A stretch of DNA of 20,706 nt from IMG/VR virus record IMGVR_UViG_3300029266_000968, positions 1-20,706 of that record. One strand, given 5' to 3'. Below the pieces are notes generated by a model, which made no database searches, was not told the DNA's origin, and was given only the letters and a program-made list of their open reading frames with translations. Source of the DNA: a virus. The position numbers and the translations under genes were made by a program. This document shows, in pieces, positions 1-11,605 of this stretch (position 1 is the stretch's first letter; each line of letters starts with the position of its first letter).

Positions 1-463
1 ATAAAGTATCTTGATCTACTACATCTACATTAGTATTAGATAAGAACTTCCAATAAGGTGCATTATCCTCAGTAATAACTTTCTTTAGTCTTTGTTCATC
101 TGTTTTAAGAGACTGGAAAAGGTTTAAAGTTTTTAATGATTCTAAGGCCTGTATCTCACATAGATCTAATGTTTCTGCATTAGTATGAATAGACATATCT
201 TTCATTACTTTTCTAATGTTATCACTAGGTGCTTTACCTGGTACAACATTAAACTTTTCTGTAACGTTTTCAGGTTCAAATAATAAACAGTGTACAAGTT
301 TCCCTTCTACTAAATGTTTATCTGTTCTAACCTCACGATCAAATAATATATACTCCTTATAAAATAAGGATGGTGAAAATAATAATTTGTTTAAAGAAGA
401 ATAGCTAAAGCAAAAATCTTTCTTTGCATAAAACACATCTTCTTTTTCTTTGTTTCTAATCAT
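1..463 (-). CDS. PD-(D/E)XK phage exonuclease (RecE/Cas4-like), 3' part cut off by window edge
   Basis: The ORF starts with ATG at 463 and runs leftward off the window; 154 residues are visible. Residues about 19-60 read FSYSSLNKLLFSPSLFYKEY, then EGKLVHCLLFEPENVTEKF. This order (YSSL, SP..YY/FYK, then G..vH.lLfEPe) is the typical N-terminal signature of phage PD-(D/E)XK exonucleases related to RecE and Cas4. The catalytic Asp and Glu-x-Lys motifs would lie beyond the window, so activity cannot be judged. Such enzymes resect double-stranded ends for phage recombination, which fits the Sak4-like ATPase, SSB-like protein and RusA upstream in the same direction. It follows a 42-aa ORF (stop at 469) with a 5-nt gap. 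The family call rests on motif recognition only. Confidence 0.72.
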   Translation of the reverse strand, partial: MIRNKEKEDVFYAKKDFCFSYSSLNKLLFSPSLFYKEYILFDREVRTDKHLVEGKLVHCLLFEPENVTEKFNVVPGKAPSDNIRKVMKDMSIHTNAETLDLCEIQALESLKTLNLFQSLKTDEQRLKKVITEDNAPYWKFLSNTNVDVVDQDTL

Positions 464-468
464 TTATT

Positions 469-597
469 TTAATCATTAATTGAATCAAGTTTCTGCTGAA
501 GCTTTTGAATTGCTAATATTACTTCAGCAGTTTGATTCACTTTTTGTTTATACAGTAATATTGTCGCTGTAATTACTTTCTTTGTATCTGACTTCAT
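469..597 (-). CDS. Small 42-aa helical protein
   Basis: An ATG at 597 opens a 42-codon frame ending TAA at 469. It overlaps the end of the 409-aa gene by 50 nt in another frame and ends 5 nt before the exonuclease start. The N-terminus is basic (MKSDTKK); the rest (VNQTAEVILAIQKLQQKLDS) has leucine/isoleucine spacing suggesting one amphipathic helix or short coiled coil. Its position filling the gap between two same-strand genes favours a real gene, but it is short and no family is recognised. The DNA of its second half also forms a long inverted repeat (482-538), so the stretch could instead be mainly a structured RNA element. Confidence 0.5.
   Translation of the reverse strand: MKSDTKKVITATILLYKQKVNQTAEVILAIQKLQQKLDSIND
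482..538 (-). repeat. Imperfect inverted repeat just upstream of the exonuclease start
   Basis: On the plus strand, GAATCAA (482-488) and CTGCTGAAG (493-501) are matched by CTTCAGCAG (522-530) and TTGATTC (532-538). That gives 9 bp plus 7 bp separated by an asymmetric internal loop (4 nt against 1 nt), with a 20-nt apical loop. In the leftward mRNA the hairpin would end about 20 nt before the exonuclease start at 463. There is no U-tract, so it is not a classical terminator. Translational control or RNA processing is an inference. Confidence 0.55.
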
Positions 598-1777
598 ACT
601 CATCTGCTTTTTCTTTAATTAGGTTATCAGTTAAGTTATCCTTTAATTTAACATTATCCAAGCTAATAGAGAAAACATTAGCATTATTACCACCTATATC
701 ACGTAGAACGTTTTTATATAATCTTTCTCTAGTATTATCTAAAGCAAATTTAGTTAATTTTTTATCTTTAATTAAATTTTTTATATAGTTGTCATAAGAA
801 TATATCATTGAAAGATTTACTCCACCTTGATACTTTTTAAGCCTTTTTCTTAAAGCTTTAACATTTACAGTGTTCCAGTTACTTGTGTCTTTTAACCAAT
901 CATATTGCCAATAAAACAGATTAGATACAACATCAAAAGATTTATCAATATTACAGTTAGCAAGCATTTCTAGCGCAAGTGTCCTGTTTTCTCTATCATT
1001 GCTTGTTACCATAGAGTGTATGTTTTTAAGCTCAGAGTTATTAAGTATAGCTAATTCATTATCAATTATATTAATAACATCTACATCATAAACAATCACA
1101 GCACTAGAATTTAAAACATTTTGATAGCTGATTAAATTTTTATCATAAAGAAGTATATCTCTGGTACCTGAATGAACAGAACTTTCCATTTTTAAATTTA
1201 AAACATCTTGTATATCATCTTTAAAACTGCTAGTGTGAGCGCTAAAACCACCATGATAGTTATTATTATGACTATATTGATAAGGCATTTTAACTTTAAC
1301 CATAGAGTCTGTACCTAAAATAGCTATCATTTCTCTATTCTTCTCTAATGCACATTGAGATAATAAACCCTTTGCTTTTAATTCAGTTACAAAACTAAAG
1401 TATTTTGCAAATGGCTTAGCAGCATTCCATTCAAACTCAAATAAGTTATCAAATAATTGATCTGATACAATATGTATATCAGCTTTATTAATATCTCTTA
1501 TAACTTTACAATTATATTTATCTTTTAATAGATCTACCTTTTGTCTAGGTAAATCTAGCTTAGGAAATCTATATAAGGTTTTATCTTGTACAGTAAAGTT
1601 TTCAGGAGGTGTAAAATCTATATTTAAGTTTTTTCTTTCTGATTCATTCATACCATAATTATCAGTAGAGCACATCCAATGTCCTATATACTCATGCTTA
1701 AATGCATCTCCCGTAAGTTGTCCTTCTACTACAGTATCATCATTTACAATTATATTAATATCATATCTTTTTTTCAT
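548..1777 (-). CDS. Unknown 409-aa protein of the MoxR-VWA cassette (paralog A)
   Basis: I do not recognise a named family. The gene starts with ATG at 1777 and overlaps the 348-aa gene by 4 nt (1774-1777), implying translational coupling. Residues 71-104 (FPKLDLPRQKVDLLKDKY, then a D...ADIHIV block) resemble residues 71-94 of the 348-aa neighbour (ILPR..., then D...ADLIV). A second match lies near residues 259-277 against 220-238 of the neighbour (S.n.e...lA...i pattern). I infer two divergent paralogs. There is no signal peptide, membrane segment or zinc motif, so the protein is probably cytoplasmic. Being fourth in a row with a MoxR ATPase and a VWA protein suggests it is a substrate, adaptor or effector of that ATPase; this is inference only. 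Confidence 0.85.
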   Translation of the reverse strand: MKKRYDINIIVNDDTVVEGQLTGDAFKHEYIGHWMCSTDNYGMNESERKNLNIDFTPPENFTVQDKTLYRFPKLDLPRQKVDLLKDKYNCKVIRDINKADIHIVSDQLFDNLFEFEWNAAKPFAKYFSFVTELKAKGLLSQCALEKNREMIAILGTDSMVKVKMPYQYSHNNNYHGGFSAHTSSFKDDIQDVLNLKMESSVHSGTRDILLYDKNLISYQNVLNSSAVIVYDVDVINIIDNELAILNNSELKNIHSMVTSNDRENRTLALEMLANCNIDKSFDVVSNLFYWQYDWLKDTSNWNTVNVKALRKRLKKYQGGVNLSMIYSYDNYIKNLIKDKKLTKFALDNTRERLYKNVLRDIGGNNANVFSISLDNVKLKDNLTDNLIKEKADEYEVRYKESNYSDNITV

Positions 1778-2820
1778 TCTTTTGTATCTTTTAAGTATTG
1801 TTGATATTCTTTTTTTACAGCAACTTTAAATGTATAAAGATCTCTATTGCTTATTCTAATCTCTTGTCTAACAATAGGCTCTAAATATTTAAAGGATATT
1901 CTATTAAGCTCTTCCTCTTTTTCTAACCAAAGAATCATATCCTGAGCTGACTTCCTACTAAACTGATTAAACTTAGATTCTTTAAGCCAGTGTTGAACAT
2001 CTTTATCTCTATTAAATTTATAGATGTTGGTGTCACATTCTTGAGCAAACTTCCATAACAAATGATAGTTTGTAGTATAATCTATACAAGGTATTAGCTT
2101 AGCTGCAATATCTAAGTCTTCTTGATTGTATGAACGAAACTGTGTAACTAAATCAAGTAACAACTGCTCATCCATAATCATCTTATTAGCAGAGCTATGT
2201 AATACTGTATTAGCATCAATAACACCTAGATCATCTGTAGTATCTATTAGGTGAGCTAAATTTATAGCCAAACCTGTTAGCATCCACTCATCATAAAGAC
2301 TGCTTTCTACATCTAAATCATAATAACGTATCTTTTCTGTAATTTTTGCTGTTATTAAAACATTACCACCATATGATTTAATAAGGCTAGACATGTCACA
2401 TACTTTAGATGCTCCACTAGTAGTTTCATAATTCCATAGTTTAGCCATCATTAAAGTTGTCAATATATTTCCACCATTTTGACATCTATCAGATATATCT
2501 TGATGCCCCACTATTAAATCAGCTAGAGTATAGTCATTAGTTACTGTAATACCGTGTTCTTTTAAGGCAGCTTTAAGTCTGTCTTGAGAAACGCTACACC
2601 TAGGAAGAATAAAAGCTTTCTTTTTATTTGAAAAAGTTGTCCCTGATTCAGTAGCTGTAGTTAATATAGTCTCTATTTTTTCATATGTAGTTTTATCTTG
2701 AGTCACTAACACGTCTTCTATTACCTGGCCTACAACATGCCCTACTTTAGGACATGCTGCTAGGTCAAAGTAATTTAGTGCAGCAATATCAAAATGTTGA
2801 TATACTGATTTTTTTGCCAT
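1774..2820 (-). CDS. Unknown 348-aa protein of the MoxR-VWA cassette (paralog B)
   Basis: The ATG at 2820 lies 1 nt after the stop of the MoxR-type ATPase gene, and the 3' end overlaps the next gene by 4 nt. No named family is recognised. Residues 68-94 contain KAFILPRCSVSQDRLKAALK followed by a V..D...ADLIV segment, the same layout as in the 409-aa downstream protein. The C-terminal third is charged and probably helical (WLEKEEELNR; KEYQQYLKDTKE). There are no transmembrane segments or Cys clusters. Tight packing behind the ATPase makes co-expression, and perhaps a physical complex, likely. The paralog claim needs a profile comparison; function is unknown. Confidence 0.87.
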   Translation of the reverse strand: MAKKSVYQHFDIAALNYFDLAACPKVGHVVGQVIEDVLVTQDKTTYEKIETILTTATESGTTFSNKKKAFILPRCSVSQDRLKAALKEHGITVTNDYTLADLIVGHQDISDRCQNGGNILTTLMMAKLWNYETTSGASKVCDMSSLIKSYGGNVLITAKITEKIRYYDLDVESSLYDEWMLTGLAINLAHLIDTTDDLGVIDANTVLHSSANKMIMDEQLLLDLVTQFRSYNQEDLDIAAKLIPCIDYTTNYHLLWKFAQECDTNIYKFNRDKDVQHWLKESKFNQFSRKSAQDMILWLEKEEELNRISFKYLEPIVRQEIRISNRDLYTFKVAVKKEYQQYLKDTKE

Positions 2821-2821
2821 T

Positions 2822-4096
2822 TTATTTCATTGTCATTTTAATTATTAATGGATTCATCATCATCTTATTAAACTTTTGCTTATTACCGTTAAAGATTGTA
2901 CGCACAACTAGATACTTAAGATCATTAGTAAAATAATCTTTAGTACATAGGCTTATTAGTCTATCAGTAATTTTTTGGCTAACTGTGTTTTCTTTTGAAT
3001 AAACAACAGAAAAGTTAGCTAAACGTGTAGCAAGTGTAGATGCAATATCTGCACGGTATGAATCATCCTGTCCAATACAACTACGTAACTCTCCTAAGAT
3101 ATATGATTCATTTTCATGAGTCAATAAGTCTTTAGGTGTTACTAGCTTATCTAGTTTGTTATTAATAAACGTAGTAAACATAGAAGCAAACGCATCTCCA
3201 ACTGAACCTTCACCAATCATTTGTATTAATGATAAGTTATCTTCAAAATTATCAAAACTTGATATTGAATTAAAGAATGTTGTAATTGATCTTGCATTTG
3301 TTTCTTGAGTTACAAGCTCAGGGTGAAGTAACAGGAAGTTAATACATCTAGTATCAATCCCTGCACTTTCTGCCCATTCGGCCCAAACATTAACATCAAA
3401 CTTGAGGTTTGCGGTCACATATCTAGTTTTCTGTGCAGAATCCACAGAGTTAACCATATAGTCACCGTTATCAGGGTTTGCTGTTAGCATAATGTGCCAG
3501 TCTTTTGGTAATGTCCAAGAAATATAAGTTTGTCTATCTATTAATTCCATGACCGCTTGAATAAATCTTGTGTCAGCTCTATTCCAGTCATCTAATAATA
3601 GGATGCCACCTTCTTTAGCATCTGCTATCCATTCAGGAGCACAATAAGACATTCTATTTTTACCTGTCATTTTGTATCCATTCTTTAAATACTCTTGCAC
3701 TGCTAACTCATCTACCCACATACCAACTTTTTTAGTTAGTGTTGTAGGCATCTTTGCTAAATCTGCTGAAGCGGCAGATCTTTGTGCTGCAGTATAGTTT
3801 AGATCATTAACTGGTTTAGGGGCATTTACTTTCTTTTCCTTATACATTTGGAATTGTCTTACAGGAAAACCTACTAGGTCACCTAACTCTTCTATCTGTG
3901 CAAGGTTTAGTTTAACAAATTTTAATTTGTTTTCTTCAGCTAATTCTACTATAGTTGAAGTTTTACCAATTCCTGATTCACCTACTACTTCTATAGATAC
4001 AGGGCTTTTATTATTAGCCTGCAGGTATCTGTTGTTTGTAATTATATGATTTACAAATCCTTTTAATTCTGTTACATTTAAATTTACTTGTGCCAT
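2822..4096 (-). CDS. MoxR/CobS-type AAA+ ATPase
   Basis: This 424-aa protein has a full AAA+ core. Walker A is GESGIGKTS (39-47), Walker B is GILLLDDWNRA (164-174) with the helix after it, sensor 1 is the Asn of LTANP (near 207), and a likely arginine finger is R225 in QKTRYVTAN. The insert-rich layout and the D-x-x-N-R-A after Walker B are typical of MoxR ATPases, the class often annotated as CobS in phages. MoxR proteins usually work with a VWA partner to remodel or load other proteins. Here the VWA gene lies directly upstream (4101-5267), 4 nt away, giving the expected pair. Cobalt chelation is unlikely because no cobalamin gene is near. Two unknown genes follow and are probably clients or cofactors. 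Confidence 0.9.
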   Translation of the reverse strand: MAQVNLNVTELKGFVNHIITNNRYLQANNKSPVSIEVVGESGIGKTSTIVELAEENKLKFVKLNLAQIEELGDLVGFPVRQFQMYKEKKVNAPKPVNDLNYTAAQRSAASADLAKMPTTLTKKVGMWVDELAVQEYLKNGYKMTGKNRMSYCAPEWIADAKEGGILLLDDWNRADTRFIQAVMELIDRQTYISWTLPKDWHIMLTANPDNGDYMVNSVDSAQKTRYVTANLKFDVNVWAEWAESAGIDTRCINFLLLHPELVTQETNARSITTFFNSISSFDNFEDNLSLIQMIGEGSVGDAFASMFTTFINNKLDKLVTPKDLLTHENESYILGELRSCIGQDDSYRADIASTLATRLANFSVVYSKENTVSQKITDRLISLCTKDYFTNDLKYLVVRTIFNGNKQKFNKMMMNPLIIKMTMK

Positions 4097-4100
4097 CTTC

Positions 4101-5267
4101 TTAGTTTAATTTTATTACTTGTCCTGGTAACTCATCATTCATCTCTGATATACTACTTAAACACCATAAGGTATTCTTTGGGCAGTCATCAGGTGCATAT
4201 GCTTCACCATCTGTTAAATATATAAGTGCCGTGTATGACCCTTTCTTTTCATTGTAGTGGTCAATAACTGGTTGGAATGATGTCCCACCACGACCATGTA
4301 TTTCCCAATCCTGCTTTGGATTAAATTCTGTTACACTTCTTAATCTTGTATCACATTGTGCAACTGATATCTTATGGCCTGTTTTAGTCATGTGTGCTAA
4401 TTCATTAAAGAATTCTTTTAGCTCATCATTATTTACAGATCCACTGGTATCTACACCAACAAGAATGTGATTTTTAAATTTAATCTTTAAGCCGGGACTA
4501 GCTGAATAACGTTTATTGTATTTACGCCTTAGCTTTTTAGTATATACTATACTAGAATTACCAACAAACCTTTTCAAATATCCTTTCCAATCAAACTTAG
4601 CCGGTTCTATATGGAATAACCTATCAATTATATCTTTAAATTCACCAGGTATGCTTCCACTTTTTTTAATTGTAGTTTCAGCAGACTGTTTTAGCTGATG
4701 ATCAACTTGCTTACTCATCAGTTTTTTATCTGGTTCAGATAAATCATCAAATTCATTCCATGTTTCATGGCAATACTCTGATTCTCCATCCATCTTATCC
4801 ATAAGACTATCTAATGAGGGAGCAGTACCATCTTCTTCAGCTTGTTCTAAAAGATTGTAATAAACTTTTGTCCCTGCTTTTCTAGGAAGATTTAATTCTG
4901 GAAATGAGCTAAGTAATAGCCCGCCATCTGGCAGGTTACTTTCCAGTATGTACTGGTTAATCTCTAAATCAGCAGCAATATTAAACAGCTTATGATTAGT
5001 ATATAGATCTCTCATTAACAAATGACCAAATGCTATGTGCAATAGTTCATGTTTAATTAAACCAATCCGGTGAGGATTACTTAAGTTTATATAAAACTCA
5101 GGGTTTATAGTCAATTGCATACCAATACCGTGCTTACTAACTCCTGCTGTAGGAATTTGATCTGTAAACTTCTTATTGATACCAATTAAAAAGAGCCCAT
5201 AAAAAGGCTCTGTTAAAATTAATTCTTTAGTTGTTTTAGCAACTAAATCCTGTATGTTATTCATCAT
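4101..5267 (-). CDS. Metallopeptidase-like plus VWA-domain protein, partner of the MoxR ATPase
   Basis: 388 aa. The N-terminal half holds a zincin-like HExxH in IKHELLHIAFGH (H73, E74, H77), followed by NIAADLEINQYI (96-107), a pattern seen in putative metallopeptidases of the DUF2201 type. The C-terminal half is a VWA-like domain: MIDAS motif DTSGS (273-277) after a hydrophobic strand (ILVGV), a later Thr in GRGGTSF (near 329), and LTDGEA (near 353). All three metal-site segments are present, so the VWA fold looks intact. This architecture is commonly encoded next to MoxR ATPases, as here. The start is one of two adjacent ATG codons (5267 or 5264). Whether the HExxH site cleaves protein or is only structural is unknown. 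Confidence 0.88.
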   Translation of the reverse strand: MMNNIQDLVAKTTKELILTEPFYGLFLIGINKKFTDQIPTAGVSKHGIGMQLTINPEFYINLSNPHRIGLIKHELLHIAFGHLLMRDLYTNHKLFNIAADLEINQYILESNLPDGGLLLSSFPELNLPRKAGTKVYYNLLEQAEEDGTAPSLDSLMDKMDGESEYCHETWNEFDDLSEPDKKLMSKQVDHQLKQSAETTIKKSGSIPGEFKDIIDRLFHIEPAKFDWKGYLKRFVGNSSIVYTKKLRRKYNKRYSASPGLKIKFKNHILVGVDTSGSVNNDELKEFFNELAHMTKTGHKISVAQCDTRLRSVTEFNPKQDWEIHGRGGTSFQPVIDHYNEKKGSYTALIYLTDGEAYAPDDCPKNTLWCLSSISEMNDELPGQVIKLN

Positions 5268-5268
5268 T

Positions 5269-5556
5269 TTACGTATTCATTATTCTATAAAGTATTTGTT
5301 TATATAATTTATTATTGCCGTTAGCTTTGATATGATTAAAAAGATTCCTACCTATTAACATAGGATCATTTCTATTAGACTTTACAAACCTTGTTCTTTT
5401 ATCTAGAAACAGAGCTTTGGTAAATAATAAGTTTATAATCTTTTCATCTTTAAACTTAAGATTCTCTAAATTAGATACTGCAATCTGATAATCTTCATTA
5501 GAACCATTTAATAAACTAACTATAGAAAAGAAATCATCAATTGTTATCTTTATCAT
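5269..5556 (-). CDS. Unknown 95-aa protein
   Basis: The ATG at 5556 overlaps the end of the RusA-like gene by 20 nt, and the stop is 1 nt before the start of the VWA gene, so it is embedded in the operon. The sequence is mostly helical by eye (DDFFSIVSLLNG; DEKIINLLFTKALFLDKRTR) with a basic C-terminal half. No domain, membrane segment or metal motif is recognised. It could belong with the resolvase or with the MoxR-VWA cassette; position alone does not decide. Confidence 0.72.
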   Translation of the reverse strand: MIKITIDDFFSIVSLLNGSNEDYQIAVSNLENLKFKDEKIINLLFTKALFLDKRTRFVKSNRNDPMLIGRNLFNHIKANGNNKLYKQILYRIMNT

Positions 5557-5920
5557 CTGGTAATATTTCTATCCAAACACCTGGTTTAGACTTATCATAA
5601 CTATATTTATCAAAGACAGGTAGAATAAATTCTGCATTATCATCTTCAATCCATCCTGCTTTAACCATATCATCTTGCACGGTTTGTGCAGGATTTATAT
5701 AGTCAAACTTATGACGGCTACCTCTGATAAACTCAAAAGATATTTTTGCTGGCAATGAATGTTTAGCTAGCTCAGCTTTAAACTCATCTGCATACTTAGC
5801 ATAATAGTCTTTGGCTACTTTTCTATAGTTCATTACAGCTTTACTAGCTATAAAGTATTTACCTGTCCAGCGTCTTCCGTTTTTTGAACTGGGTACGGAC
5901 CCTGGTATAAACCATCTCAT
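5537..5920 (-). CDS. rusA: RusA-family Holliday junction resolvase
   Basis: 127 aa, the usual size for RusA. The N-terminus (IPGSVPSSKNGRRW) matches the family opening, G.p.sKn..r. The acidic metal-binding residues are present in order: D73 in KFDY, D83/D84 in QTVQDDMVKAGWI, and D93/D94 in IEDDN. RusA cuts four-way DNA junctions symmetrically, resolving recombination or replication intermediates before packaging. The gene starts 2 nt after the primase stop and lies within the replication/recombination operon, alongside the Sak4-like ATPase and exonuclease. All expected catalytic acids are seen. Confidence 0.88.
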   Translation of the reverse strand: MRWFIPGSVPSSKNGRRWTGKYFIASKAVMNYRKVAKDYYAKYADEFKAELAKHSLPAKISFEFIRGSRHKFDYINPAQTVQDDMVKAGWIEDDNAEFILPVFDKYSYDKSKPGVWIEILPDDKDNN

Positions 5921-9874: not shown

Positions 9875-10470
9875 TATACTACTTTTTCTTTAAAGTTCTT
9901 CTCTTCTGTATCTATACCATCTCTAATCATATCACAATAGTCCGCTAATGTAGAGTGCTTAACCCTATGCTTATCTTGCTTGCATATAAAGTACTGACTT
10001 GTCTGCATATACAGGTATTCAGCATCTCTGTACTCATTAACGTACATTTTAGAGGCCTCAATGACATCTTTCCACGTATAATCATATGTTTCAAAGAACC
10101 ATCTGAATGACTCTGATAGCATTTTAACATTAACTCTTGCAGGTTTACCGCTAGGCAACCTTATATTAGGAAATGTCTCTCTATAGATGTTTATATTATC
10201 AGCAAAGTCTTTACCCATCAATTGTATATCAGTTTTCTTCTTTGCTTTAATAAAATAATTATCAAGCTTAGCACAGAATGCTTTAGCTACTGCTGTCATG
10301 ATATATTTATCATCCACCAGTTCCAAATAACCTAATTTCTTAAGTTTATCTTTATCATCTTGACTAGTGTTGGTTGATGAAACGCCTTGCTTGATCCCAA
10401 ATAGGATCAGAGCTTGATTTGGTGTCATCTTTTCTTTTAATATCTTTTGTAATAATTCCCACATATCCAT
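9874..10470 (-). CDS. Winged-helix protein upstream of DnaB; possible replisome organiser or helicase loader
   Basis: 198 aa, ATG at 10470 (a second ATG at 10464 is also possible). Residues 15-70 (KMTPNQALILFGIKQG, then KLKKLGYLELVDDKYIMTA) have the helix-turn-helix then beta-hairpin layout of a winged-helix domain. The C-terminal part contains several aromatic-rich helices (FRWFFETYDYTWKDVIEASK). It ends on the first base of the DnaB gene. A DNA-binding protein directly before the helicase gene suggests origin binding or helicase loading; this is inferred from position. Its first 107 nt overlap the DnaA-like gene in another frame, and both readings look protein-like. Confidence 0.8.
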   Translation of the reverse strand: MDMWELLQKILKEKMTPNQALILFGIKQGVSSTNTSQDDKDKLKKLGYLELVDDKYIMTAVAKAFCAKLDNYFIKAKKKTDIQLMGKDFADNINIYRETFPNIRLPSGKPARVNVKMLSESFRWFFETYDYTWKDVIEASKMYVNEYRDAEYLYMQTSQYFICKQDKHRVKHSTLADYCDMIRDGIDTEEKNFKEKVV

Positions 10471-10876
10471 CTATTTTTTTTTGTAATTTTTCAAGTATTT
10501 TGCAGAAAGTTTTATCTTTGGTTTCTATACCATTACTAACTGTTTTACAAGAGTTAATAATAGTAGCATGACCTCTAAAGATAGCCTTACCGATAGAAGT
10601 TTTAGAATAACCATCATTAAAAGCTAAGAAACTCATTACCTGAATATACATTATAAAATCACGTTCTCTAGTTCTAGTCTTAAAATCATAGTTTTTATAC
10701 TTAGGATGATCTTCAACTATAGTATGTAAAGTCAATTCTTTATAAATTGCTAATGTTAAAGTAGATTTAGATGTTACAGGAGTTAAAACATAAAGTTTTA
10801 TATCATGTTCTCTATAGAATTTCTTCTTAAAGCGCTCTATCTGAGCTTTTTGTTTAATCTTTTGATTATCAATCAT
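10364..10876 (-). CDS. DnaA domain IV-like DNA-binding protein
   Basis: 170 aa, ATG at 10876. Residues about 68-125 match the layout of DnaA domain IV, the part that binds DnaA boxes: TRERDFIMYIQVMSFLAFN corresponds to the R.iamYL.reLt helix, SKTSIGKAIF to s...IG..Fg, and RGHATIINSC (101-110) to the GRDHTTV.HA signature. There is no AAA+ domain (no P-loop), so it cannot act like full DnaA. It is the first gene behind a near-consensus promoter (10898-10928) and precedes winged-helix and DnaB genes, so it may recognise the phage origin. Alternatives are a transcription regulator or a competitor for host DnaA boxes. The last 35 codons overlap the next gene by 107 nt. Confidence 0.75.
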   Translation of the reverse strand: MIDNQKIKQKAQIERFKKKFYREHDIKLYVLTPVTSKSTLTLAIYKELTLHTIVEDHPKYKNYDFKTRTRERDFIMYIQVMSFLAFNDGYSKTSIGKAIFRGHATIINSCKTVSNGIETKDKTFCKILEKLQKKIDGYVGIITKDIKRKDDTKSSSDPIWDQARRFINQH

Positions 10877-10897: not shown

Positions 10898-10928
10898 CAA
10901 ATATACTTATTATTACCAGTTTATACAA
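10898..10928 (-). promoter_or_regulatory. Bacteroidota-type promoter for the replication operon
   Basis: Read leftward: TTG (10926-10928), 20-nt spacer, then TATATTTG (10898-10905), a perfect match to TAnnTTTG with the normal TTG element and spacing of the Bacteroidota primary sigma factor. Transcription should start near 10891, about 15 nt before the ATG of the DnaA-like gene at 10876. It lies mostly inside the 3' end of the uracil-DNA glycosylase gene. Confidence 0.82.
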
Positions 10929-11605
10929 GCTTTATCTTGCGTATTTAATATTTCATTTGCTTTATCAAAAACATCATTTGAATCCCATTCACCTCCTCTA
11001 TAAGCAGCGGAAGCCGGATGAGAACATTTAAGAATTTTACAGTTAGGAAGTAAAGTTTGCCATGCTTCAGCTTTCTTACCCATCAATATAAATATTGTAT
11101 CTGGGTTATGTCTATTGATATTATCAAAGACATGTTCTGTAAAGCTTTTCCATATACCATAGTGTGAACCAATCTTATTAACTTCACAAGTAAATGCAGT
11201 ATTAATAAGTAGTACACCTTGGTTAGCCCAACGTCTTAAATCACACTCTTCAGGTGTATATACTGTTTTGCCAGTAGTCTGTTTCAGTATATATTGTAAA
11301 GACTTCTCAGCTTTACCTTTTACACTACAGCTAAATGCTATACCATCAGCTACACCTAACTGTGGATACGGATCTTGTCCTACTATAACTACCTTTAGAT
11401 TATCATAAGGGCATTCATAAAAACCATTAAATACATCTTTAAATTTAGGAGTAAAACGCCTGCCTTGTTCTACATTTTCAATTAGTGTATTCATTATATG
11501 ATCAAAGCTTAAACCATTAACATATGGTGACAGCATTCGGTCCCAACTGCTGTCTTTCAGCTTGTTGTTTAAATTATCTCTTAATAAATTAATGTCTATG
11601 TCCAT
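10913..11605 (-). CDS. ung: Family 1 uracil-DNA glycosylase
   Basis: 230 aa, the normal full length. Family 1 motifs are all present: GQDPYP (76-81) with catalytic D78, FSC (91-93) with the uracil-stacking Phe, LLINTAFTC (132-140) with N135, and HPASAAYRGG (196-205) with H196 in the minor-groove loop (normally HPSPLSAYRG). The enzyme removes uracil from DNA, which implies this phage does not replace thymine with uracil. The ATG at 11605 is divergent from the rightward gene at 11650, leaving only 44 bp for both starts. The 3' end carries the promoter of the replication operon. Confidence 0.95.
   Translation of the reverse strand: MDIDINLLRDNLNNKLKDSSWDRMLSPYVNGLSFDHIMNTLIENVEQGRRFTPKFKDVFNGFYECPYDNLKVVIVGQDPYPQLGVADGIAFSCSVKGKAEKSLQYILKQTTGKTVYTPEECDLRRWANQGVLLINTAFTCEVNKIGSHYGIWKSFTEHVFDNINRHNPDTIFILMGKKAEAWQTLLPNCKILKCSHPASAAYRGGEWDSNDVFDKANEILNTQDKACINW

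Follow-up and report, generated by a model that had tools for sequence, protein, structure and literature searches.

What does a MoxR-type ATPase with a VWA partner do in a phage that keeps both among its replication genes, next to two further proteins of no recognised family? The question is raised by the viral record IMGVR_UViG_3300029266_000968, of which positions 1 to 20,706 (20,706 nucleotides, hereafter the window) were analysed. The minus strand of the window holds, between 5267 and 548, four open reading frames (ORFs) that encode, in this order, a VWA/metallopeptidase protein of 388 amino acids (aa; 4101..5267), a MoxR/midasin-type AAA+ ATPase of 424 aa (2822..4096), and two proteins that we will call U1 (348 aa; 1774..2820) and U2 (409 aa; 548..1777). 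A preliminary description of the window had proposed a four-gene cassette with junctions of 1–4 nucleotides (nt), and the ORF coordinates agree: a gap of 4 nt separates the VWA and ATPase genes, a gap of 1 nt the ATPase gene from U1, and U1 and U2 overlap by 4 nt. Our answer, to which we assign a probability of roughly 0.45, is that these genes may encode a MoxR–VWA remodeller that is served by two dedicated adaptor or scaffold partners and targets complexes of replication or recombination. The function of phage MoxR/VWA-peptidase pairs has been open since gp24/gp25 of phage N4, which are listed with unknown function in the relevant part of PMC2784036, and a role in assembly is only proposed in that of PMC7824862; a lineage that fixes the pair in a replication operon, with two expressible obligate partners, provides a concrete route to the client. 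Should the proposal hold, an AAA+ remodeller would be a core replication part in a widespread crAss-related phage group.

Conservation of the Cassette

The co-occurrence of the four genes was surveyed by IMG/VR scans seeded with U1, the ATPase, a divergent U2 and a divergent U1, which gave 297 seed rows. The U1-seeded scan is complete (57 relatives), and each of the other three comprises its 80 best relatives, out of 331, 324 and 317 that were confirmed, so that the far edge of the family lies outside the survey. The rows overlap, representing 286 loci (267 of them with all four genes) and 152 distinct DNA spans. All four genes are present in the order VWA-ATPase-U1-U2 and on one strand in 277 of the 297 rows; the remaining 20 miss at least one member, and by a distance rule the end of the contig or locus is too close in every one of them (20/20). 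The preliminary description would have given way if the two unknown genes rarely accompanied the ATPase/VWA pair, and the counts go the other way. Two further contigs (L301, WLWP01000004.1, and L302, CAKZOX010000136.1) also carry the four genes in order (2/2). The cassette is thus real and strictly conserved in this lineage.

Both of these last contigs belong to bacterial metagenome-assembled genomes, labelled Pseudomonadales and Campylobacteraceae, and hold the entire cassette together with the replication block. Both would seem to be phage contigs that entered bacterial bins, one of them (114,697 bases) apparently a complete phage placed there in error.

The junctions of the cassette are not everywhere as short as in the window. 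Gaps of more than 50 nt between the VWA and ATPase genes amount to 13 distinct cases, 11 of which contain a 128-aa gene of phrog_33624 (e.g., L083:7592-7975, and ten other gaps); of the other two, one is due to a VWA gene broken up over several frames (L030), and the second lacks a frame of the phrog_33624 type. Single contigs show the VWA gene in several frames (L030:5539-6715) or the ATPase gene in two (L247:5701-6990), through decay or sequencing error. A very short Cys-rich, zinc-ribbon-like frame separates the ATPase gene and U1 at L063:8566-8676, and likewise in L065 and L027.

The ATPase and Its VWA Partner

The ATPase matches phrog_1297 with an E-value of 3.6e-34, and the best solved-structure match of its profile (alignment A5) is midasin (E 3.9e-28); the Pfam model AAA_5 is reached with 19.5 bits, under the cut-off of 22. 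The CobS label often given to phage copies had been judged inappropriate in the preliminary description, and rightly so, as the CobS-type phrog_249 is matched at E 7.6e-5 over 42 residues only (35-76). Walker A (GESGIGKT, residues 39-46; 3959..3982, minus strand), the sensor Asn, the Arg of the Arg finger and the NARS Arg, as we take these motifs to be, are invariant in 71 of 71 distinct ATPases, the window's included. Walker B (ILLLDD, residues 165-170; 3587..3604, minus strand) reads LLLDDWNRAD in the same 71/71, with Asp replacing the usual catalytic Glu. Four distant phage relatives read LDE, LEE, LDE and LDE at this site, and since they keep the Glu, its replacement is a change of this lineage. 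In this sense, the intact AAA+ ATPase of the preliminary description stands as regards Walker A, sensor Asn and Arg finger, but not Walker B, which ends in DD rather than DE; this points to a motor that turns over slowly or is subject to regulation. Among the features given for MoxR AAA+ proteins in the part of PMC7159879 concerned with them is an insert, specific to the clade, in helix 2 of the AAA+ core.

The VWA/metallopeptidase protein, a putative co-chaperone, scores above the Pfam cut-offs for both DUF2201_N (57.4 bits, cut-off 23.2) and DUF2201 (57.0 bits, cut-off 26.4), and matches phrog_1314 at E 1.8e-62. This last family, composed of metallopeptidase/VWA proteins, is misnamed "HNH endonuclease", a label that now stands in many phage records. 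The co-existence in one protein of HELLH and an intact MIDAS, already noticed in the preliminary description, extends to the whole alignment: HExxH (HELLH in the window, residues 73-77; 5037..5051, minus strand) and the MIDAS DxSxS (D273-S277; 4437..4451, minus strand), completed by T329 and D353, are kept in 67 of 67 VWA proteins, a set that includes the window's and from which one 183-aa fragment was excluded before counting. Furthermore, H73, E74, H77, H82, N96, D100, N104, D273, S275, S277, T329 and D353 are also invariant across four distant cultured-phage relatives, and the MIDAS residues D273, S275, S277, T329 and D353 are kept in 14/14 aligned sequences. Taken with the AAA+ core, the midasin match and the adjoining VWA gene (277/297 rows), these data agree with the earlier assignment of the two proteins to a MoxR–VWA-type pair.

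Two insertions touch the catalytic codons themselves. At L157:1859-4198 (identical DNA in L153 and L158) an insertion with a 282-aa frame interrupts the HELLH codons of the VWA gene, and at L162:3481-5876 (identical DNA in L160) another, with a 242-aa frame, interrupts the ATPase gene just past DDWNRA, i.e., at Walker B. Both look like homing-endonuclease introns, their frames bearing what we take to be homing-endonuclease motifs; Rfam at gathering scores gave zero matches in the window, L157 and L162. Homing-type elements favour immutable codons, and the position of these insertions agrees with function at both sites.

U1 and U2

As the preliminary description had anticipated, U1 and U2 belong to no convincing family: the 54 U1 and 48 U2 members gave scattered weak matches, none with a convincing score, in Pfam, PHROG, NCBIfam and PADLOC. 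The AlphaFold2 models (mean pLDDT, i.e., predicted local distance difference test, 89.4 and predicted TM-score, pTM, 0.79 for U1; 87.6 and 0.70 for U2) predict for U1 a split BRCT-like domain (~61-213), ARM/HEAT-like helices (214-291) and, at the C-terminus, a conserved tail, and for U2 a split BRCT-like domain (~62-242) followed by HEAT-like repeats (244-318). In structure comparisons, U2 62-242 aligns with the BRCT domain of PARP1 (Z 7.2, root-mean-square deviation 3.1, 78 aligned residues), BRCT being named in 13 of 50 rows, and U2 244-318 aligns with HEAT/ARM proteins. U1 61-213 aligns with BRCT domains at Z ~3 (named in 5/50 rows; best BRCT match of U1 by Foldseek against the PDB: E 0.33, probability 0.87), and U1 214-291 with ARM/HEAT proteins at Z up to 5.9. 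By sequence, U1 does not reach the Pfam cut-off for BRCT (14.3 bits vs 21.3), although 11 of its 54 members match at E <= 0.1 (best 0.0083); none of the Pfam families listed for U2 (48 members) is BRCT. On the models, each protein probably contains a BRCT-like domain.

The preliminary description had not considered that the two proteins could be related to each other, which we regard as quite probable: their models and profiles point to distant paralogues. The same four viral proteins head the structure-match lists of both, namely A0A8S5QMV2 (from the crAss-like phage ctYsL76), A0A6J5LXR8, and A0A8S5TL70 and A0A8S5TKB2 (both from one phage, ctz6O13), and these are the sole viral matches with E <= 0.001 (1.4e-10 to 5.2e-6 for U2, 3.8e-8 to 2.4e-6 for U1). 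Profile comparison of the HEAT-like pieces alone gives E 0.0002, and of the BRCT-like N-terminal halves E 0.0023 over 22 columns. As controls, reversed U2 gave E 0.083, unrelated profiles 0.044 (primase) and 0.052 (VWA), and the best of 60 column shuffles 0.031, with 0/60 reaching 0.004; G5, a small neighbouring protein, scores equal to the U1–U2 match. BLASTP of U1 against U2 found no similarity, and the paralogy hence rests on profiles and folds.

The tail of U1 (residues 305-342; 1795..1908, minus strand) is highly conserved, with L305, F310, L313, E314, R318, I321, I323, N325, R326, Y329, F331, V335, K336, E338 and Y339 invariant in 54/54 sequences. It is a natural, if only possible, candidate for docking; the model is less confident over the last 20 residues of the tail (pLDDT blocks of 75, 84 and 72 for residues 321-348). 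U2 has 14 invariant residues over 48 sequences. G5 (95 aa; 5269..5556, minus strand), encoded directly upstream of the VWA gene, shows a weak likeness to the HEAT-like part of U2 (hhalign E 0.0013, 96 columns, equalled by 0/100 column shuffles of U2) and a less certain one to that of U1 (1/100 shuffles as good), and is possibly a fifth member of the module.

The Replication Operon and Its Phages

The genes upstream of the cassette in the window are, going outward, G5, a RusA-like resolvase (5537..5920, minus strand; phrog_1682, E 5.8e-20), a primase, an SSB-like gene (phrog_378, at E 0.28 only), Sak4, an unknown 180-aa gene and a DnaB-type helicase. Downstream lies the start of an exonuclease-VIII-like gene of RecB fold (2..463, minus strand; phrog_412, E 2.3e-5), which runs off the window. 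This order is fixed: DnaB, the 180-aa gene, Sak4, the SSB-like gene, primase, RusA, (G5), VWA, ATPase, U1 and U2 are collinear over 81 distinct loci whose orders were listed, and the exonuclease-VIII-like gene follows U2 in all 106 loci with room for it (67 distinct U2 sequences). Among 12 large, hand-picked contigs, a DNA_pol_B match occurs 3.2–4.2 kilobases downstream on the same strand in seven, each under the Pfam cut-off, one of the matching ORFs being a DNA polymerase by phrog_1252 (E 1.6e-137); DNA_pol_A and DNA_pol3_alpha were found in 0/12. In all 12 the cassette lies on the strand opposite to TerL. Position and strand favour a replication or recombination role. Of the targets put forward in the preliminary description, the replisome fits this neighbourhood, as does a recombination target, but host enzymes and counter-defence find no support here.

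The median identity to the window, for which part of the loci were chosen by ATPase similarity, is 88.1 percent for the ATPase, 87.1 for DnaB, 86.8 for Sak4, 81.0 for the VWA protein, 79.8 for RusA, 68.8 for primase, 61.9 for U1 and 39.5 for U2. The motor and its co-chaperone would thus be held like core replication enzymes, and the adaptor-like U1 and U2 drift.

Beyond DnaB, the window encodes a DnaA C-terminal-like protein, the product of gene 10913-11605 (phrog_12143, with no function given), presumably a uracil-DNA glycosylase, and an SNF2-like helicase. The first of these, a 170-aa protein (10364-10876), matches the C-terminal part of DnaA models at E 3.8e-6, far under the curated cut-off, and is possibly a replication-initiation factor.

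The TerL of the crAss genome cr115_1 matches 12/12 large contigs (E 1e-34 to 1e-40, 26–28 percent identity) and its major capsid protein (MCP) four of them, weakly; Terminase_6N was found in 0/12. The nearest records of TerL, primase and SNF2 are crAss-like and Flavobacterium phages. These uncultured phages appear to be distant relatives of the gut crAss phages and may be described as Crassvirales-related. The earlier guess of a Bacteroidota phage is thus in keeping with the affinity of TerL, primase and SNF2, but no host is shown. The opposite strands of cassette and TerL match the arrangement described for Crassvirales, with replication and structural halves on opposite strands, in the corresponding part of PMC10136315. 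A single crAss genome, cr115_1, was viewed for comparison: its RusA and exonuclease genes flank an AAA gene and an Mre11-like gene, at the position taken here by the cassette. The AAA gene is annotated CbbQ/NirQ/NorQ, an annotation repeated for the 268-aa gene that comes after it (L292:11582-13536); against our ATPase profile, this "CbbQ" gene gives only a P-loop-sized match (30 columns, E 1.9e-4). A clean swap of the cassette for the crAss Mre11 gene is not shown, because Metallophos matches occur in 3 of the 12 cassette contigs, one of them over the cut-off.

Proposed Mechanism and Alternatives

In the mechanism that we propose, the ATPase would assemble into a hexameric ring of the MoxR type, as its family suggests, with the VWA/metallopeptidase protein as co-chaperone of the ring; its MIDAS may grip an acidic side chain of a client or adaptor, and its HExxH site, judging by the conserved residues, may cut one or the other. 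U1 and U2 would act as adaptor or scaffold subunits within a single complex of all four proteins, linking the ring to the nucleoprotein complexes that primase, DnaB, Sak4, RusA, exonuclease and polymerase, encoded nearby, make. Driven by ATP turnover, which the Asp in the place of the Walker B Glu probably keeps slow, the ring would dismantle or re-form these complexes, e.g., at the switch from replication to recombination or packaging.

Several observations weigh against this proposal. Position in an operon indicates co-expression, not function, and the DD of Walker B could mean a weak, nearly inactive ATPase ring. The BRCT Z-scores (up to 7.2 for U2, ~3 for U1) lie in the range that the tool regards as unspecific, and may reflect common arrangements; the viral structure matches shared by U1 and U2 have TM-scores of 0.32–0.50 only, and their full profiles match weakly (E 0.0035 and 0.0084 in the two directions, probability 9.4 and 4.8 percent) and in the C-terminal part only. 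In cultured phages, a polymerase or helicase is named in the fetched flank of only 5 of 12 regions (Moorella, Ab09, SP-058, RHph_TM27A and pYD6-A, Ab09 being counted through N4 gp37/gp39-like gene names), and the relatives in S-TIM5 and XbC2 adjoin structural genes; such mixed neighbourhoods imply that the role of the pair may differ between lineages. Moreover, profile searches of ORFs found no U1/U2 homologues beside the pair in cultured-phage regions: the 107 ORFs with 120 aa or more in six regions gave no match below E 0.003, and the 52 with 180 aa or more in eight regions gave a single U2 match (E 0.0047, 16 columns), judged noise; against phages, tblastn with U1 and with U2 as the query gave nothing at E <= 1. 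The third gene of the Moorella phage, considered as a candidate homologue, gave no match (E 0.62 and 0.40).

The alternative that survives best, although we hold it to be unlikely, takes U1 and U2 as ordinary BRCT–HEAT scaffolds of replication or recombination, merely co-transcribed with the pair and forming no four-part machine with it. The entire block is tightly packed and collinear, so adjacency is not special to these four genes, and the fast divergence of U2 (median identity 39.5 percent) is not shared by the ATPase (88.1). Against this, U1 and U2 come directly after the ATPase in 277/277 complete rows, whatever is inserted elsewhere, and the cultured phages without U1/U2 carry the pair alone.

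A variant that we deem improbable keeps the four proteins together as a protease clearing roadblocks: the ring would unfold proteins stuck on or cross-linked to phage DNA, HExxH would cut them, and the recognition of DNA ends, of forks or of the replisome would fall to U1/U2 (perhaps with G5). Such a protease would be the bacterial-virus analogue, by a different route, of the eukaryotic SPRTN/Wss1 plus p97 pathway.

Equally improbable in our view is a chaperone with peptidase for virion assembly or maturation. This role is proposed for the same kind of pair in jumbo phages (PMC7824862, in the part concerned) and shown in part for p618/p892 of the archaeal virus ATV (PMC4124505, likewise), and structural genes lie near the pair in S-TIM5 and XbC2; the cassette, however, is located within the replication block and opposite to TerL in 12/12 contigs.

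A host-directed or counter-defence device that dismantles a host complex has slightly poorer prospects still. Ternary MoxR-vWA conflict systems do exist in bacteria (PMC7159879, in the passages on them), and U2 evolves fastest of the four proteins. Nonetheless, PADLOC returns for the ATPase only a weak match to DolB (E 7.1e-4), and the cassette is invariably present and conserved like core replication genes. Counter-defence genes are typically patchy. Finally, it is very improbable that the pair activates an enzyme or inserts a metal or cofactor, in the manner of CbbQ-CbbO or NorQ-NorD, which are of the same broad family with a motor and a VWA partner, as the replication block contains no client metalloenzyme and we know of no counterpart of U1/U2 in those pairs.

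Comparison With Known Systems

The closest solved structure to the ATPase of the proposed remodeller is that of midasin (Rea1/Mdn1), in which motor and MIDAS also co-operate; it differs in being a single, giant polypeptide that comprises six AAA units and is dedicated to eukaryotic ribosome assembly. In E. coli, RavA-ViaA likewise consists of a MoxR ATPase with a VWA partner, which stimulates the ATPase according to the relevant part of PMC9489729. U1 and U2 are absent there, and the Pfam list of the window's ATPase at E <= 1 includes general AAA models only, with no RavA-specific one. To our knowledge, ViaA has no HExxH domain. The MoxR-vWA ternary conflict systems of bacteria share the plan of motor, vWA protein and fixed third component, but in the passages of PMC7159879 devoted to them the third part is VMAP, an inactive STAND, FtsH or a beta-propeller, instead of two BRCT/HEAT-like putative paralogues in a phage replication operon. 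A viral precedent with a measured MoxR–VWA interaction is ATV p618/p892 (PMC4124505, in the section on this pair).

Among phages, the ATPase/VWA-metallopeptidase pair is already known, both from N4 (gp24/gp25; PMC2784036) and from jumbo phages (PMC7824862), as far as the relevant parts of these sources go, and the VWA protein matches 324 phage records at 1e-5, many of them N4-like. The N4 pair of Schitoviridae is homologous to ours, the gp24-like and gp25-like proteins of Pseudomonas phage Ab09 matching our profiles at E 1.6e-7 and 5.3e-20; it differs in its order (ATPase followed by VWA), its other neighbours, the Walker B Glu of two aligned members and the lack of U1/U2. The MoxR and metallopeptidase-vWA pair of jumbo phages has the same architecture by the authors' description (Iyer et al. 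2021; PMC7824862, in the part on this pair), and virion assembly is proposed there, in contrast to the replication block and the two fixed extra partners found here. As far as our searches reach, the novelty of the present cassette lies in these two partners and in its replication setting.

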